The position numbers and the translations under genes were made by a program. The notes under the pieces are model-generated. The model saw only the letters and a list, made by a program, of their open reading frames with translations, ran no database searches and was not told the DNA's origin. From IMG/VR virus record IMGVR_UViG_3300006925_000014, positions 1-64,000 of that record: 64,000 nucleotides of DNA; one strand, given 5' to 3'. Source of the DNA: a virus. This document shows positions 1 through 61,958 of this stretch, one piece after another (position 1 is the first letter of the stretch; the number at the start of each line of letters is the position of its first letter).

Positions 1-39
1 AAAGGCTTCAAACTCTAGTTTTTGAAATAGTCCTGCCAT
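1..39 (-). CDS. Partial gene next to gp4, 5' end only
   Basis: An ATG on the minus strand at 39-37 follows the TAA of gp4 directly (TAAATG) and stays open to the window edge, giving 13 residues beginning MAGLFQKLEFEAF. The tight junction with gp4 says it is a real co-transcribed gene. In T4 the neighbour of gene 4 on this side is gene 2, the DNA end protector, so a gp2-like protein is possible by position. Thirteen residues are too few to assign a family. Confidence 0.5.
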   Translation of the reverse strand, partial: MAGLFQKLEFEAF

Positions 40-57115: not shown

Positions 57116-57123
57116 TATAAATA
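57116..57123 (+). promoter_or_regulatory. Late promoter TATAAATA after gp23
   Basis: This exact late octamer lies directly before the gp23 terminator hairpin, 41 bases before the 57165 gene. A start about 6 bases downstream would fall within the hairpin's left arm, so the new transcript would not form the terminator. Confidence 0.75.
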
Positions 57124-57164: not shown

Positions 57165-57680
57165 ATGGTAGAAGTATTAACAGCAAATAAAAATTACTTG
57201 CAACCTACTGGTTTTCGAGTAGTTATTGATAGAGAAAATTATCCTAACTTAGAATTCTTTGCACAGAGTGTAAACCACCCTGACGTTTCAATGACTGCTC
57301 CTAGTGTTCCATACCCTCGTATCGGTAATGTGAGTTTACCGGGTGATACTGTTGAATATTCTGAATTAAGTATTCAGTTTCTTTTAGATGAAGACATGAC
57401 TTCTTACCTTGAACTGTACAATTGGTTTGAGAGTATGGTCAATGAGAACTTTGCTGGTCCGGGTGCAAGGTCTTCTAGGAATTCAGACAGGGTTCCTACC
57501 CAAGCAGATATTTCTGTTTCTATTCTTTCTAGTCACAATAATCAAACAAAAAGAGTAATTTACAAAGGATGTAGTCCAACATCTTTAAGTGGTCTACAAC
57601 TTACCTCTATTGCAACCAGTGTAGAATATTTAACATTTGATGTTTCCTTTACATTTACAGGCTTTGAATTTAAAGGGTAG
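57165..57680 (+). CDS. Tail-tube-fold protein, gp3-position (tail terminator-like)
   Basis: This 171-residue protein has the layout of the tail tube family: YLQPTGFRVVIDRENYPNLE, PDVSMTAPSVPYPRIGNVSL, then PGDTVEYSELSIQFLLDEDM (compare GDRTF in gp19), TSYLELYNWFESMVNE and a closing YLTFDVSFTFTGFEF. In related marine phages a protein of this kind follows gp23 and is commonly named gp3, the tail tube terminator/completion protein (T4 gp3 is about 176 residues). The tube fold is seen directly; the gp3 name is by position and size. GGAG precedes its ATG at a good distance. Confidence 0.65.
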   Translation: MVEVLTANKNYLQPTGFRVVIDRENYPNLEFFAQSVNHPDVSMTAPSVPYPRIGNVSLPGDTVEYSELSIQFLLDEDMTSYLELYNWFESMVNENFAGPGARSSRNSDRVPTQADISVSILSSHNNQTKRVIYKGCSPTSLSGLQLTSIATSVEYLTFDVSFTFTGFEFKG

Positions 57681-57691
57681 TGTGCTATAAT
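57664..57691 (+). promoter_or_regulatory. Sigma70-type extended -10 promoter before uvsY
   Basis: TGCTATAAT at 57683-57691 is an extended -10 with a perfect TATAAT hexamer; TTGAAT at 57664-57669 is a fair -35 with 16-base spacing. It lies at the junction from late structural genes to recombination genes, 34 bases before uvsY. It suits early or middle transcription by host holoenzyme. Confidence 0.75.
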
Positions 57692-57725: not shown

Positions 57726-58175
57726 ATGAAACTTGATTTAGAAAGCATCTTAGAGATGTGGAAAGAAGATTGTGAGATTGAAGAATTTAAATTAGATGAA
57801 TCTTCCAGAAAGACACCTTCTCTACATGCAAAGTATCTAGAGATACGTTCTCTCACAAAACTCAGATTACAAGAAGCAGAACTTGCGCAGAAAACCCTGC
57901 TCAAGAATAAATGGGCATACTATAATGGTAAAATGGATGAAGATACCATTAGAGAGTTTGGCTGGGAATTTGATCCGTTCAACGGTCTAAAGGTAATGAA
58001 GGGTGATATGAATCACTTCTATGACTCAGACACAGACATTCAAAAGTCTGAAGTCAAGATTACCTATTATAAAACTATGTTGGAAACTCTTGAAGAAATA
58101 ATTAATAACTTGAAATGGCGACACTCCACTATCAAAAATATGATTGATTGGCGGAAGTTTGAGTCGGGAGGCTGA
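57726..58175 (+). CDS. uvsY: Recombination mediator UvsY
   Basis: This 149-residue homologue of T4 UvsY (137 residues) loads the UvsX recombinase onto single-stranded DNA covered by gp32. The pattern is typical: LESILEMWKEDCEIEEFKLD (about 5-24), HAKYLEIRSLTKLRLQEAEL (about 38-57), KNKWAYYNGKM, and a helical C-terminus with VKITYYKTMLETLEEIINNL and KWRHSTIKNMIDWRKFESGG. The order gp23 - (gp3) - uvsY - uvsW is the one known from marine T4-like phages. It is preceded by a sigma70-type promoter. Confidence 0.93.
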   Translation: MKLDLESILEMWKEDCEIEEFKLDESSRKTPSLHAKYLEIRSLTKLRLQEAELAQKTLLKNKWAYYNGKMDEDTIREFGWEFDPFNGLKVMKGDMNHFYDSDTDIQKSEVKITYYKTMLETLEEIINNLKWRHSTIKNMIDWRKFESGG

Positions 58176-58176
58176 T

Positions 58177-58563
58177 ATGACATTATTTGTGAATGAAGAA
58201 TTTACTTCTCATGCTGGTCTACAACTAGGATGGAAGATCGAAATGGATGCACTCTATATGAGTGACTGGCGTTGTCTTGCTAAGATTATTCTAGAATATG
58301 AGAAGCGCCCATTTCGTGAAGCAGTAGGTATTCCCCGTGGTGGTAAACGTCTAGGTGATATTCTAAATGAATCTGCTACAGGCAATCCTGATGACCCTGT
58401 TTTGATTGTTGATGATGTATATACAACAGGCACTAGTTTCAGAGAATATATTGAAGAGAATTATCCTGATGATAATGTCATTTGTTGGGTTGTGTTTGCT
58501 CGCAATAAAATCTACAAGAGACATATCAAAGCATTATTTCAAATGCCATCTAAGCCTGAATAA
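58177..58563 (+). CDS. Phosphoribosyltransferase-like protein
   Basis: I start at ATG 58177, one base after the uvsY stop and just after CGGGAGG (58164-58170). An in-frame ATG at 58144 would lie inside uvsY. The 128-residue protein has the type I PRTase fold signature: REAVGIPRGGKRLGDIL for the early loop (about 47-63), and the PRPP-binding motif PVLIVDDVYTTGTSFREYIE near 75-94. No purine or pyrimidine specificity can be read from the short hood region. Phage PRTases of this size occur at this site in marine relatives. It is coupled to uvsW by a TAATG overlap, so it may act in nucleotide salvage during replication. Confidence 0.82.
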   Translation: MTLFVNEEFTSHAGLQLGWKIEMDALYMSDWRCLAKIILEYEKRPFREAVGIPRGGKRLGDILNESATGNPDDPVLIVDDVYTTGTSFREYIEENYPDDNVICWVVFARNKIYKRHIKALFQMPSKPE

Positions 58564-60044
58564 TGACAGATTTAGTAGTTAGACAGAAAAACTATTCCGC
58601 ATTAGAAATTCAGTGTGAACCTCATGTAGCAAATGAATTGAATGATTTCTTCTCGTTTGAAACACCGGGATACAAATACATGCCATCCTACAAGAACGGT
58701 AGATGGGATGGTAAAACACGTTTGTTTAATGTTCGTAATAATGAACTGCCTGTAGGTCTATGGGAGTATCTGTCTGATTTTATTAAACCAAGAAACTATA
58801 CACTTGGTGTGGAGTATGATAATCAGTATGGTACACCTGATGGAAAACTAGCAGTTAGACCCAAAGATGTTTATGATTTTATTCAGAAACTGAACTTACC
58901 TTTTGAAGTGAGGGACTATCAGTTTGATGCTATCTGTCAGGCACTACAGTCCAGACGTGCTATTCTACTGTCACCTACAGGTTCTGGCAAGTCACTAATT
59001 ATCTATGTTTTGATGATGTGGTATCTAGAACATTATAACAAACGGTTGCTTATTGTTGTTCCCACTACTGGTCTTGTTCAGCAGATGTTCTCTGACTTTG
59101 AAAACTATGGGCTTGAAGCAGGTGAAGTCTGTCACAGAATCTATTCTGGTATGCCTAAGCACGATATTAAACAACGTGTATTCATTTCTACATGGCAGTC
59201 AATCTATAAACTACCTAGTGGTTGGTTTGAACAGTTTGGTTGTATCTTTGGTGATGAAGTGCATAACTTCAAAGCAAAATCATTATCTGGTATTATGAAC
59301 AAATCTAGAGAAGCAGAGTTTCGTATTGGATTGACAGGAACGTTAGATGGGACGCAATGTCACAAACTTGTGCTAGAAGGTCTATTTGGTCGTGTTCGTA
59401 AAGTAACCACGACAAAAAAACTTATGGATAATGATACACTTGCAGAACTAAAGATTAATATCCTTGCTCTAAAGTATCCTCCTGAAGTTTGCCGTGATAT
59501 TATAAATACTAAAGATTACCATTATGAAATTGACTACCTTGTTAGTAATATCAAACGTAATAGACTCATTCAAAATCTAGCATTAGATCAGGAAGGCAAT
59601 ACTCTTGTTCTATTTCAGTATGTAGAAAAGCATGGTAAAGTTATCTATGACTTAATCAAGGATAAAGCACATGAACGGCGTAAGGTTTTCTTCGTATCAG
59701 GTGAAGTTGATGCTGAAGTCAGAGAAGAAATACGGGGCATTGTTGAACAACAGAAAAATGCTATCATTGTGGCTAGCCTTGGTACGTTCTCCACGGGTGT
59801 AAATATTCGCAATCTTCATAATATTATTTTTGCATCTCCATCTAAATCACAAGTAAAAGTATTACAGTCTATCGGTCGTGGACTTAGAAAGTCTGAAGAT
59901 GGTAGACCTACAGTGCTTTATGATTTGATGGATGATATGCATTATAGACAGAAAAAGAACTACACACTCTTACATGGTCTGGAAAGAATGAGGATATATA
60001 AGAAAGAAGATTTCTCTTTTGAAATACACGAAATCAAAATGTAG
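58563..60044 (+). CDS. uvsW: DNA/RNA helicase UvsW
   Basis: This 493-residue SF2 helicase is homologous to T4 UvsW, which unwinds branched recombination intermediates and R-loops and switches replication from origin- to recombination-dependent mode. Visible motifs: [16 protein letters not shown] (Walker A, about 136-147), [11 protein letters not shown] (Ia), DEVH at about 231-234 (II), GLTGTLDG (III), [13 protein letters not shown] (IV) and [15 protein letters not shown] (VI). The N-terminal domain ([20 protein letters not shown], then [13 protein letters not shown]) matches UvsW. It follows the PRTase gene in a coupled operon, and a homing endonuclease begins two bases after its stop. Confidence 0.95.
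59501..59508 (+). promoter_or_regulatory. TATAAATA inside uvsW (probably chance)
   Basis: This exact late octamer lies within uvsW codons (ATT ATA AAT ACT), over 500 bases from the next gene start. With no gene boundary near, it is probably accidental. A role in late expression of the endonuclease or gp55 cannot be excluded. Confidence 0.2.
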
Positions 60045-60046
60045 AT

Positions 60047-60724
60047 ATGTATAATATGTTTTATATATACGCATATTTGCGCAAAGACGGCACACCTTAC
60101 TATATTGGTAAGGGTAAAGACAATCGAGCATTCTCTAATACTGGTAGAGCTTTCAGGCGACCAAAAGATGAAAATCGTATTGTTATAATGGAATCAAACT
60201 TGACTGAGTTAGGTGCTTTCGCATTAGAGAGAAGATATATAGAATGGTATGGTCGTAAAGATTTAGAAACTGGCACCCTACACAATCGCACGGATGGTGG
60301 TGACGGTATACACGGATACAAACACTCACCTGAGTCCATAAAAAAGATGAGTGAAGCACATAAGGGCAAAAAGCTTTCTGAAGAGCATAAAAGAAAAGTG
60401 AGTGATGCTCTTAGTGGTAGAAAGCTTTCTGAAGAACATAAAAGAAAAATGAGTGAGTTACGCAAGGGTAAAAAGCTTTCTGAAGAGCATAAAAGAAAAG
60501 TGAGTGATGCTCTTAGTGGTAGAAAGCTTTCAGAAGAGCATAAAAGAAAAGTGAGTGATGCTCTTAGTGGTAGAAAGCTTTCTGAAGAACATAAAAGAAA
60601 AATGAGTGCTGCTCAAAAGGGATTCAAACAAGAAATCGTAACTTGCCCTTATTGTCAAAAAACTGGTGGGAAAAACATTATGATGAGGTGGCATTATGAA
60701 AACTGTAAACAAAAAAGAACTTAG
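60047..60724 (+). CDS. GIY-YIG homing endonuclease with NUMOD3 array and zinc finger
   Basis: This is a free-standing homing endonuclease of 225 residues. The GIY-YIG domain (about 1-90) shows [20 protein letters not shown], then the catalytic-region Arg and [12 protein letters not shown] with Glu, and N-TDGGDG. Six NUMOD3 DNA-binding repeats of 17 residues follow ([34 protein letters not shown] and variants, about 92-193). A C-terminal zinc-finger-like CPYC-x12-H-x4-C (about 201-220) ends it. Seg-type enzymes of this family cut a target in related phages lacking the gene and spread by repair. It is inserted between uvsW and a small frameshifted gene. Confidence 0.92.
60320..60625 (+). repeat. 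51-bp tandem repeats encoding NUMOD3 units
   Basis: AAGCTTTCTGAAGA... units start at 60371, 60422, 60473, 60524 and 60575, exactly 51 bases apart and nearly identical in DNA. A diverged first unit lies at 60320-60370. The low synonymous divergence points to recent expansion by unequal recombination, giving an array longer than the one to three NUMOD3 copies common in such enzymes. Confidence 0.9.
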
Positions 60725-60852
60725 AGAAAAAAGCAACTGATCATATAAACTTTCTCTTAGCAAGAGGCTATATAGATGAGAGTCAAAGAGATATAATGAT
60801 AAAAAGATACTACGATCAGTTACTGAAGGATAATGGTTATGTCGGAACTTGA
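60696..60852 (+). pseudogene. Small conserved-looking gene broken by a +1 base in an A6 run
   Basis: ATG 60696, with GAGG 8 bases upstream, opens [12 protein letters not shown] and then stops at 60738 in the current frame. Removing one A from the A6 run (60727-60732) continues it as ATDHINFLLARGYIDESQRD, then IMIKRYYDQLLKDNGYVGT with stop at 60850-60852, a coherent 51-residue helical protein. It would overlap the endonuclease end and the start of the next gene, as usual here. It also fills an otherwise empty 110-base gap. It is either a true frameshift, a programmed shift, or a homopolymer sequencing error. No function is known. Confidence 0.7.
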
Positions 60853-61231
60853 TGATTATGGTGAAGAATTTGAGGATGATCGTCCACGGGTATTCAAACT
60901 GATTACCGGAGAAGAGATTGTTACAACTGTCATTAGAACAGATGATACTTTCTTTGTAATAGAAGTTCCTTTAGAGATTAGATACAATTCTGTTAAGCAA
61001 TCTTTGTTTCTAACCAAATGGATGTTTGGTGCTGACTACTCTAAGGTAATGACCTTGGCAGGTGCTTCTATTGTTTCTGTTTCTACACCTGAAGATATTG
61101 TATCAGAAAACTATGCTGAATACAGGAAACAATTAATTGAAAGTATGTTAGAAGAAAAAGAAGAAGAATCTAAAGAAGAATATGCTCAGATAAATATTGA
61201 GGCTGATGAAGATACACCGACTCTACATTAA
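60839..61231 (+). CDS. Sm-like fold protein of unknown function
   Basis: I prefer ATG 60839, about 10 bases after AAGGA; ATG 60833 is too close to it. The 130-residue protein starts with an acidic segment (SELDDYGEEFEDDRPRV). A compact beta-barrel-like domain follows (VFKLITGEEIVTTVIRTDDT, then FFVIEVPLEIRYNSVKQSLF, LTKWMFGADYSKVMTLAG), and the C-terminal tail is acidic and helical. The short beta-barrel with G-E-I-V after the first strand resembles Sm/LSm-like domains. Proteins of this type lie beside uvsW and gene 55 in marine T4-like phages, and an RNA-binding role would be inference. It ends 137 bases before gp55. Confidence 0.7.
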   Translation: MSELDDYGEEFEDDRPRVFKLITGEEIVTTVIRTDDTFFVIEVPLEIRYNSVKQSLFLTKWMFGADYSKVMTLAGASIVSVSTPEDIVSENYAEYRKQLIESMLEEKEEESKEEYAQINIEADEDTPTLH

Positions 61232-61239
61232 TGTATATT

Positions 61240-61251
61240 CCCCCGGGCCCC
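61240..61251. other. Isolated GC patch in AT-rich leader
   Basis: CCCCCGGGCCCC lies 9 bases after the Sm-like gene stop, within a 136-base AT-rich intergenic region. It cannot form a normal hairpin (no loop). It lies just downstream of the -10 element of the minus-strand promoter at 61264-61292, in the expected initial transcribed region. Its function is unknown. Confidence 0.5.
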
Positions 61252-61263
61252 AAAACCAATAGG

Positions 61264-61292
61264 ATTATATACCAATTTTTATAATTTGTCAA
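61264..61292 (-). promoter_or_regulatory. Perfect sigma70 consensus promoter on the minus strand
   Basis: Read on the minus strand: TTGACA (61292-61287), 17-base spacer, TATAAT (61269-61264). Both hexamers are perfect. Expected start near 61257, running leftward antisense to the Sm-like gene and beyond. No minus-strand gene is visible downstream. It is back-to-back with the gp55 promoter. Confidence 0.7.
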
Positions 61293-61311
61293 GCAAAAAA
61301 ATAACTTGACA
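61287..61311. repeat. Inverted repeat covering both -35 elements
   Basis: TGTCAAG (61287-61293) and CTTGACA (61305-61311) are perfect inverted arms separated by 11 bases (A-rich). Each arm contains the -35 element of one of the two divergent promoters. The symmetry is therefore explained by the two -35 boxes, but it also extends one base and could serve a dimeric regulator. Confidence 0.6.
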
Positions 61312-61334
61312 GATGAATATATTTTTAGTATAAT
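61306..61334 (+). promoter_or_regulatory. Perfect sigma70 consensus promoter before gp55
   Basis: TTGACA (61306-61311), 17-base spacer, TATAAT (61329-61334); the gp55 ATG is at 61368. A perfect consensus promoter implies strong early transcription of the late sigma factor gene by unmodified host RNA polymerase. No late octamer is present. Confidence 0.9.
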
Positions 61335-61367
61335 GTTTAGATTATTAAACCATTTAAGGTATTATGT

Positions 61368-61958
61368 ATGAAACGTAAAGACAGCAATTACATTAACAAT
61401 AAAGAATTTTCACAGGCAGTCTTTACATATGTAGAAGAATGTAATGAATGTAAAAAGAAAGGTATTGAAGTTCCTGTTGTACCTAACTATGTTGCTCTTG
61501 GGTTTCAACAAATTGCTGAAGGGTTATCACACAGACCTAACTTCATTTCCTATTCATATAGAGACGAAATGGTAATGGATGCTGTAGAGAATTGTCTAAA
61601 AGCAATTCGTAACTATAATATTGAGGCTGCTACCCGCACAGGTAATCCTAATGCTTTTGCATATTTTACACAAATCTCCTACTATGCTTTCTTGCGTCGT
61701 ATTGCCAAAGAAAAGAAACAGCAAGAAATTAAAGATATTTACTTTGAAAATTCCTTTGCGGCTGACTTGATTGAAGGATCATCTAATCAAGATGAAACCT
61801 CACGCCATATCACTCATGCTGCTATTGAATCTGCAAAAATGAAGATGAATGAAAATAAAGAGTTGACAGATGACGAATATATTGCTATGCTAGAGGATAG
61901 TTTACCTAAAAAACGTATTCGCAAAACTAACGACTCTGATATAACGGAATTCCTATAA
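61368..61958 (+). CDS. 55: Late transcription sigma factor gp55
   Basis: This 196-residue homologue of T4 gp55 (185 residues) is the small sigma factor that directs host RNA polymerase to TATAAATA late promoters. Conserved pattern: YINNKEFSQAVFTYVEECNE (about 7-26), VPNYVALGFQQIAEGLSHRP, NFISYSYRDEMVMDAVENCL, KAIRNYNIEAATRTGNPNAF and AYFTQISYYAFLRRIAKEKK (about 60-125). This is the region 2-like part of sigma that melts the -10. The C-terminal tail KKRIRKTNDSDITEFL ends in an acidic hydrophobic peptide like the beta-flap and sliding-clamp-binding ends of T4 late factors. At least nine intergenic target promoters are in this window. Confidence 0.95.
   Translation: MKRKDSNYINNKEFSQAVFTYVEECNECKKKGIEVPVVPNYVALGFQQIAEGLSHRPNFISYSYRDEMVMDAVENCLKAIRNYNIEAATRTGNPNAFAYFTQISYYAFLRRIAKEKKQQEIKDIYFENSFAADLIEGSSNQDETSRHITHAAIESAKMKMNENKELTDDEYIAMLEDSLPKKRIRKTNDSDITEFL

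Follow-up and report, generated by a model that had tools for sequence, protein, structure and literature searches.

PaQ of phage lambda and comparable antisense promoters of other phages are early σ70 promoters that oppose a gene of the late programme and thereby delay its expression. Antisense transcription is also described in a marine T4-like phage, cyanophage S-PM2, in which the antisense RNA CfrI extends over psbA and a homing endonuclease (Millard 2010; PMC2984593, PMC5931967), CfrI at psbA being the only antisense RNA described in PMC2984593. The cyanomyoviruses of the sea are believed to rely on early promoters of the host type; they display NATAAATA late promoters, and do not contain MotA, AsiA, Alt, or Mod (PMC2984593); strand-specific expression data exist for P-HM2 on MED4 (PMC5082946). 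T4 transcribes uvsW from a late promoter, and its product unwinds the R-loops of origins (PMC3016281). Few marine viruses are more abundant than the T4-like phages infecting cyanobacteria and SAR11, whose early/late timing is poorly known. The leftward promoter analysed here, placed between uvsW and the late sigma factor gene gp55, is not mentioned in the literature searched, and its start site may have been mapped earlier.

The window, i.e., the whole stretch of DNA analysed, comprises 64 kb of a 67,007-bp viral record and displays the gp23-gp3-uvsY-uvsW-Sm-like-gp55-gp47 order of marine T4-like phages (Kyanoviridae); a tRNA search of the window found none. The locus comprises the following features:

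57117..57123, plus strand: late-promoter motif ATAAATA before gp3, at the operon head (motif scan)
57664..57691, plus strand: weak σ70-like promoter before uvsY, TTGAAT-16-TATAAT with TG before the -10 (10/12)
57726..58175, plus strand: uvsY (PF11056, 3.7e-30)
58563..60044, plus strand: uvsW, DNA/RNA helicase (UvsW_N, 1.8e-18; phrog_16)
60047..60724, plus strand: GIY-YIG-type homing endonuclease with NUMOD3 repeats (PF07460, phrog_314)
60833..61231, plus strand: Sm-like gene, last in the operon and first predicted antisense target (phrog_527/471; PDB 3by7 profile match, 7e-15)
61232..61257, minus strand: G-rich first part of the predicted leftward transcript, corresponding to the C-rich operon 3' UTR on the plus strand (direct reading)
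61264..61292, minus strand: leftward antisense σ70 promoter, TTGACA 61292-61287, 17-nt spacer, TATAAT 61269-61264 (12/12)
61293..61305: 13-bp A-tract spacer between the -35 boxes, GCAAAAAAATAAC (direct reading)
61306..61334, plus strand: rightward σ70 promoter of gp55, TTGACA 61306-61311, 17-nt spacer, TATAAT 61329-61334 (12/12)
61368..61958, plus strand: gp55, late sigma factor (phrog_234, 2.2e-46)

The homing endonuclease is an insertion in the window phage, located between uvsW and the Sm-like gene and under the predicted antisense transcript, with about six near-identical NUMOD3 repeats; locus L126 likewise displays a large gap between uvsW and the Sm-like gene. The endonuclease/Sm-like interval contains a short open remnant (60731-60840, ..DHINFLLARGYIDESQRDIMIKRYYDQLLKDNGYVGT), the 'broken small gene' of the initial annotation. 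The product of 60833-61231 is predicted to adopt an Sm fold, as judged from the profile match to PDB 3by7, an Sm-like pentamer, and from a structural model comprising β-strands and a C-terminal helix (mean pLDDT 75.6). A C-terminal His (61226-61231 in the window) ends this protein in almost all non-cyanophage homologues, phiM12 included, preceded by an unalignable tail, and is missing from the cyanophage homologues. Just past the window, L651 717-2845 (record 64216-66344) encodes, as read by eye, a membrane protein resembling phosphate permeases and a periplasmic binding protein resembling the BMP family, possibly host-derived metabolic genes.

The two promoters flanking the A-tract are the only 12/12 σ70 matches on both strands of the 64 kb, each comprising two consensus hexamers separated by 17 nt, within the 16-18 nt typical of σ70 promoters. 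The initial annotation had placed two perfect back-to-back promoters at 61257-61340, a span that fits the expected transcription starts (near 61257 for the leftward promoter), and both are confirmed with the coordinates listed above. Regarding the shared -35 core that it had also described, the inverted repeat stands (TGTCAAG-N11-CTTGACA, 61287-61311) but the overlap does not, since the -35 hexamers are 13 bp apart (61293-61305); the intervening A-tract may represent a shared UP element. The sequence of the rightward promoter fits its assignment to gp55, and it is conserved 5' of gp55 in most relatives. The leftward promoter lies on the strand opposite to the operon and reads into the Sm-like gene, with no leftward gene present in the window, an arrangement characteristic of cis-antisense transcription; the aim at the Sm-like gene and uvsW that the initial annotation had proposed is supported, and recurs across relatives with no leftward gene to serve.

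The conservation of this arrangement was analysed in gp55 loci from IMG/VR and annotated phages, 491 of them usable, reduced to 155 representatives at 85% identity. The leftward promoter was counted in the 137 non-redundant representatives with uvsW in view, by scoring the uvsW-gp55 interval with three -35 variants admitted (TTGACA, TTTACA, and TGTACA) and using an equal-length minus-strand stretch 3' of the gp55 start as control (n=129). The best leftward score is 12 in 65 representatives, 11 in 52, 10 in 15, and lower in 5. A promoter of at least 11/12 is found in 117/137 representatives versus 4/129 controls, all four at 11 and none at 12; the proportion rises to 132/137 at a threshold of at least 10/12, but a score of 10 alone is weak, being attained by 61/129 controls. 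The promoter is missing in a few relatives (L199, L378, L370, L379, and L600). Of the 102 relatives scored for spacer length, 100 have 16 or 17 nt between the leftward hexamers. An origin by chance, or as a relic of a lost divergent gene as the initial annotation had proposed, would agree with the lack of any leftward gene in the window; nevertheless, dinucleotide shuffles yield a mean of only 0.12 perfect promoters per window, the promoter is kept family-wide, and a leftward gene is found nowhere among the relatives, so that this origin is hardly credible. The companion claim that two such promoters are unlikely by chance is borne out: the minus-strand hexamers are conserved, as are the rightward ones in most relatives, and the pair is judged real because both hexamers, spacing, and position are conserved.

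All 20 marine T4-like isolates examined display a leftward promoter of at least 10/12 at the same place, namely (i) P-SSM2, S-RIM2, ACG-2014a/b/d/f/i, S-H35, S-H38, S-CAM9, S-PRM1, Sf-CH3, Sf-CH8, C48C1, Mosig, and HTVC008M, and (ii) Syn9, S-PM2, P-HM2, and P-SSM4, with P-HM2 and P-SSM4 showing TACACT as the leftward -10. In nine of them (S-H38, S-H35, ACG-2014b, ACG-2014d, ACG-2014i, Sf-CH3, P-SSM2, S-RIM2, and S-PM2), a whole-genome pattern search discloses this site as the sole antisense-strand TTGACA-16..18-TANAAT of the genome. In addition, Sinorhizobium phage phiM12 displays a 12/12 antisense promoter in its Sm-like/gp55 interval, at a greater distance from the stop codon. The leftward promoter was not found in Caulobacter phage Cr30, where synteny is broken, nor in RB3, Vibrio D491s, and Mutine, where synteny is different.

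The -35 box itself provides a further line of evidence. The leftward -35 type (TTGACA or T[T/G]TACA) tracks the other promoters of the same phage, exemplified by a 114-kb T-type contig with ten TNTACA promoters versus one TTGNCA. The third -35 base (G/T) of the leftward promoter equals that of the gp55 promoter in 89/101 relatives (52 + 37 agree and 12 disagree), the relatives being not independent, so that the Fisher p value overstates the strength of this agreement. Because the -35 type follows the phage's own promoter type, as expected of a working promoter, the leftward site appears to be one. The dyad symmetry arises because two boxes obey one consensus, and the special dimer-binding regulator suggested by the initial annotation is unneeded, since the arms change with the phage-wide -35 type. 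Judged by these sequence comparisons, the leftward promoter is a real, selected antisense promoter.

The position of the leftward promoter is set by the operon end. Its -10 ends 31.5 ± 4.5 nt past the stop codon of the operon's last gene, the interval from promoter to Sm-like stop comprising 61232..61257 in the window. Where the operon has a further gene after the Sm-like one (L164, L178, L182, and L190), the promoter comes after that gene; where an inserted gene parts the promoter from gp55 (16 representatives), it stays behind the Sm-like gene, 300-1500 bp from gp55, with an adjacent rightward promoter never better than 9/12, gp55 usually having its own promoter. The inserted gene mostly encodes a putative nucleotidyltransferase, by sequence motif only, which in L316, L331, L345, L369, and others starts with MK[VIY]GFTCS[STA]FDLLH. 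Because the position is held with extra last genes, with gp55-side insertions, and in phiM12, the comparison of loci indicates that the promoter belongs to the end of the operon rather than to gp55.

A constant position some 31 nt beyond the final stop codon, where no intrinsic terminator was found and the operon 3' UTR is C-rich, might also suit an insulator, in which a convergent promoter, or a polymerase bound there, keeps late-operon transcription from reading through into gp55 and the early region. However, most of the genes inserted before gp55 have no good σ70 promoter and seem to need read-through, and σ70 transcription is expected to be low while the late operon is active, which makes this function unlikely. 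In non-cyanophages, a C-rich, CCTTCCCTCC-like tract immediately follows the operon's last stop (61232-61257 in the window and its homologues), and could conceivably be a Rho-type site.

When adjacent, the two promoters display a preferred geometry. In adjacent pairs, the gap between the -35 boxes runs from -16, with the boxes interleaved, up to 58 bp and falls into classes of -16/-15, -7, 1-8, 12-16, 24-28, 32-38, 43-47, and 53-58 bp, with a single case at 19, the class step being about 10.3 bp. For 100 pairs, the resultant length is 0.71 at periods of 10.25-10.5, and at most 0.37 at the tested periods of 9.5 or less and 11.5 or more. At 10.5 bp, the V-test on 32 phylogenetically independent contrasts yields p of about 1.5e-4, with 9.5-10.25 fitting the contrasts slightly better; the helical phase had first been seen in data that also form part of the enlarged set used for the test. 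This phase suggests two interacting polymerases or a shared upstream contact, and because it is kept, a positional interplay of the promoters is possible where they are adjacent.

The initial annotation had gone further, reading the shared -35 territory as a switch. In such a bidirectional gp55 switch, the promoters would compete or cooperate via shared -35/UP-element DNA, tuning gp55 timing. The helical phase of adjacent pairs (spacing classes near -16, -7, 4, 14, 25, 35, 45, and 55 bp) speaks for it, as does the single TTGTCAAG box 5' of gp55 in the cyanophages P-SSM2, S-PRM1, S-CAM9, and S-H35, which seemingly serves as -35 both ways (TTGWCAA being palindromic). Nevertheless, a divergent-pair switch keeps its promoters together at a mutually exclusive distance, whereas steric exclusion is impossible across -16 to +58 bp and the leftward promoter lies far from gp55, mostly partnerless, in the 16 representatives with an inserted gene. 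The switch fails as a conserved core and is quite improbable as a function of the locus.

The predicted leftward transcript starts G-rich in most lineages: averaged over relatives, the G fraction of the first 25 nt is 0.30-0.34 after the leftward promoter versus 0.18 after the rightward one. This composition favours R-loops, and the early leftward transcript could prime DNA synthesis from a replication origin, as at T4 oriF near uvsY, which comprises a promoter with a σ70-type -10 and a downstream R-loop (PMC3016281). Both the promoter and the G-rich start are present, and the GC skew is weakly compatible, the site occupying a low part of the cumulative curve in HTVC008M, C48C1, and P-SSM2. 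On the other hand, the skew minima are 11-20 kb off, gene content also shapes the skew, and no unwinding element was identified at the site; an origin primer is thus a doubtful function for this promoter.

Beyond its G-rich start, the transcript shows few constraints. The analysis disclosed (i) no conserved leftward ORF, frames and start codons varying among relatives, (ii) no conserved RNA structure (mean z -0.09 over 40 relatives), (iii) no synonymous constraint in the Sm-like gene, uvsW, or gp55, with ratios near 1 and no 3'-end peak, (iv) no match in an Rfam search, and (v) no leftward terminator between the promoter and uvsW, the single weak candidate, at 57900, falling within uvsY, past uvsW. 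A trans-acting small RNA would display conserved sequence or structure, neither of which is found, and a small peptide would require a conserved frame. Many non-cyanophages do carry a purine-rich, Shine-Dalgarno-like tract followed by ATG/GTG opposite the Sm-like C-terminal His codon; however, relatives do not share a frame (ATG-TAG in the window), several lineages have no start codon, and the 3' sequence is wholly different where another gene ends the operon, rendering a trans-acting RNA or peptide very unlikely. The same lack of ORF, structure, and constraint leaves a cis-antisense RNA, or the act of transcription itself, as a possibility, and agrees with an antisense RNA acting in cis, the target dictating its sequence.

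Early σ70 antisense transcription that holds down the late gp3-uvsY-uvsW-Sm-like operon is the reading tentatively preferred here, with a probability placed slightly below even. The host RNA polymerase with σ70 would fire the leftward promoter early, and antisense transcription would run back through the Sm-like gene toward uvsW, opposing sense transcription or translation by polymerase collision and/or RNA duplex formation while σ70 transcription lasts. Relief would come on takeover by gp55-dependent late transcription from the late promoter before gp3, so that UvsW and the Sm-like protein would stay low until late. The sequence-level support comprises the promoter, its conservation, its operon-end place, its independence from gp55, the late motif before gp3, also kept in relatives, and the σ70-like promoter before uvsY in some relatives, which scores 11-12/12 just 5' of uvsY in L164, L172, L189, and C48C1 and by which early transcripts could enter uvsW. 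Promoter firing, transcript reach, and the early lowering of UvsW and Sm-like protein are inferred.

Within this antisense control, uvsW is the proposed main target and, in relatives too, precedes the promoter in gene order. The distance from promoter to uvsW varies, from about 0.5 to 2 kb (1.2 kb in the window because of the homing endonuclease), so that a long antisense RNA would be required to reach uvsW; the actual target may instead be the Sm-like gene. The helical phase with the gp55 promoter is likewise unexplained by antisense control. A broader and speculative proposal, itself rather unlikely, would combine both elements: the marine T4-like family would time the passage from R-loop-primed to recombination-dependent replication by one antisense promoter at the uvsW operon end, held in helical register with the late-sigma promoter, one 80-bp control region setting both gp55 onset and UvsW delay. 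A wrong-strand promoter kept through deep divergence and gene insertions, often the sole one of its kind in a genome, in any case points strongly to a missing control step.

Compared to known systems, the window resembles divergent σ70 pairs with back-to-back -35 boxes in its geometry, but the leftward promoter has no gene to serve and is kept even where the partner is missing. The proposed control shares with the late promoter and oriF R-loop control of T4 UvsW the notion that UvsW, a helicase acting against R-loops, is wanted late (PMC3016281), whereas the T4-type phage RB3 displays another gene order around gene 55, without a leftward promoter there. As with CfrI of S-PM2, antisense transcription would occur in a marine T4-like phage, here predicted from a promoter, but the site is that of uvsW/Sm-like-gp55 and is also found in phages of non-photosynthetic hosts. 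Finally, the locus would parallel lambda PaQ as an early σ70 promoter opposing a late-programme gene; the differences are its location, 3'-terminal in a recombination/replication operon and back-to-back with the late sigma gene, and its family-wide occurrence.
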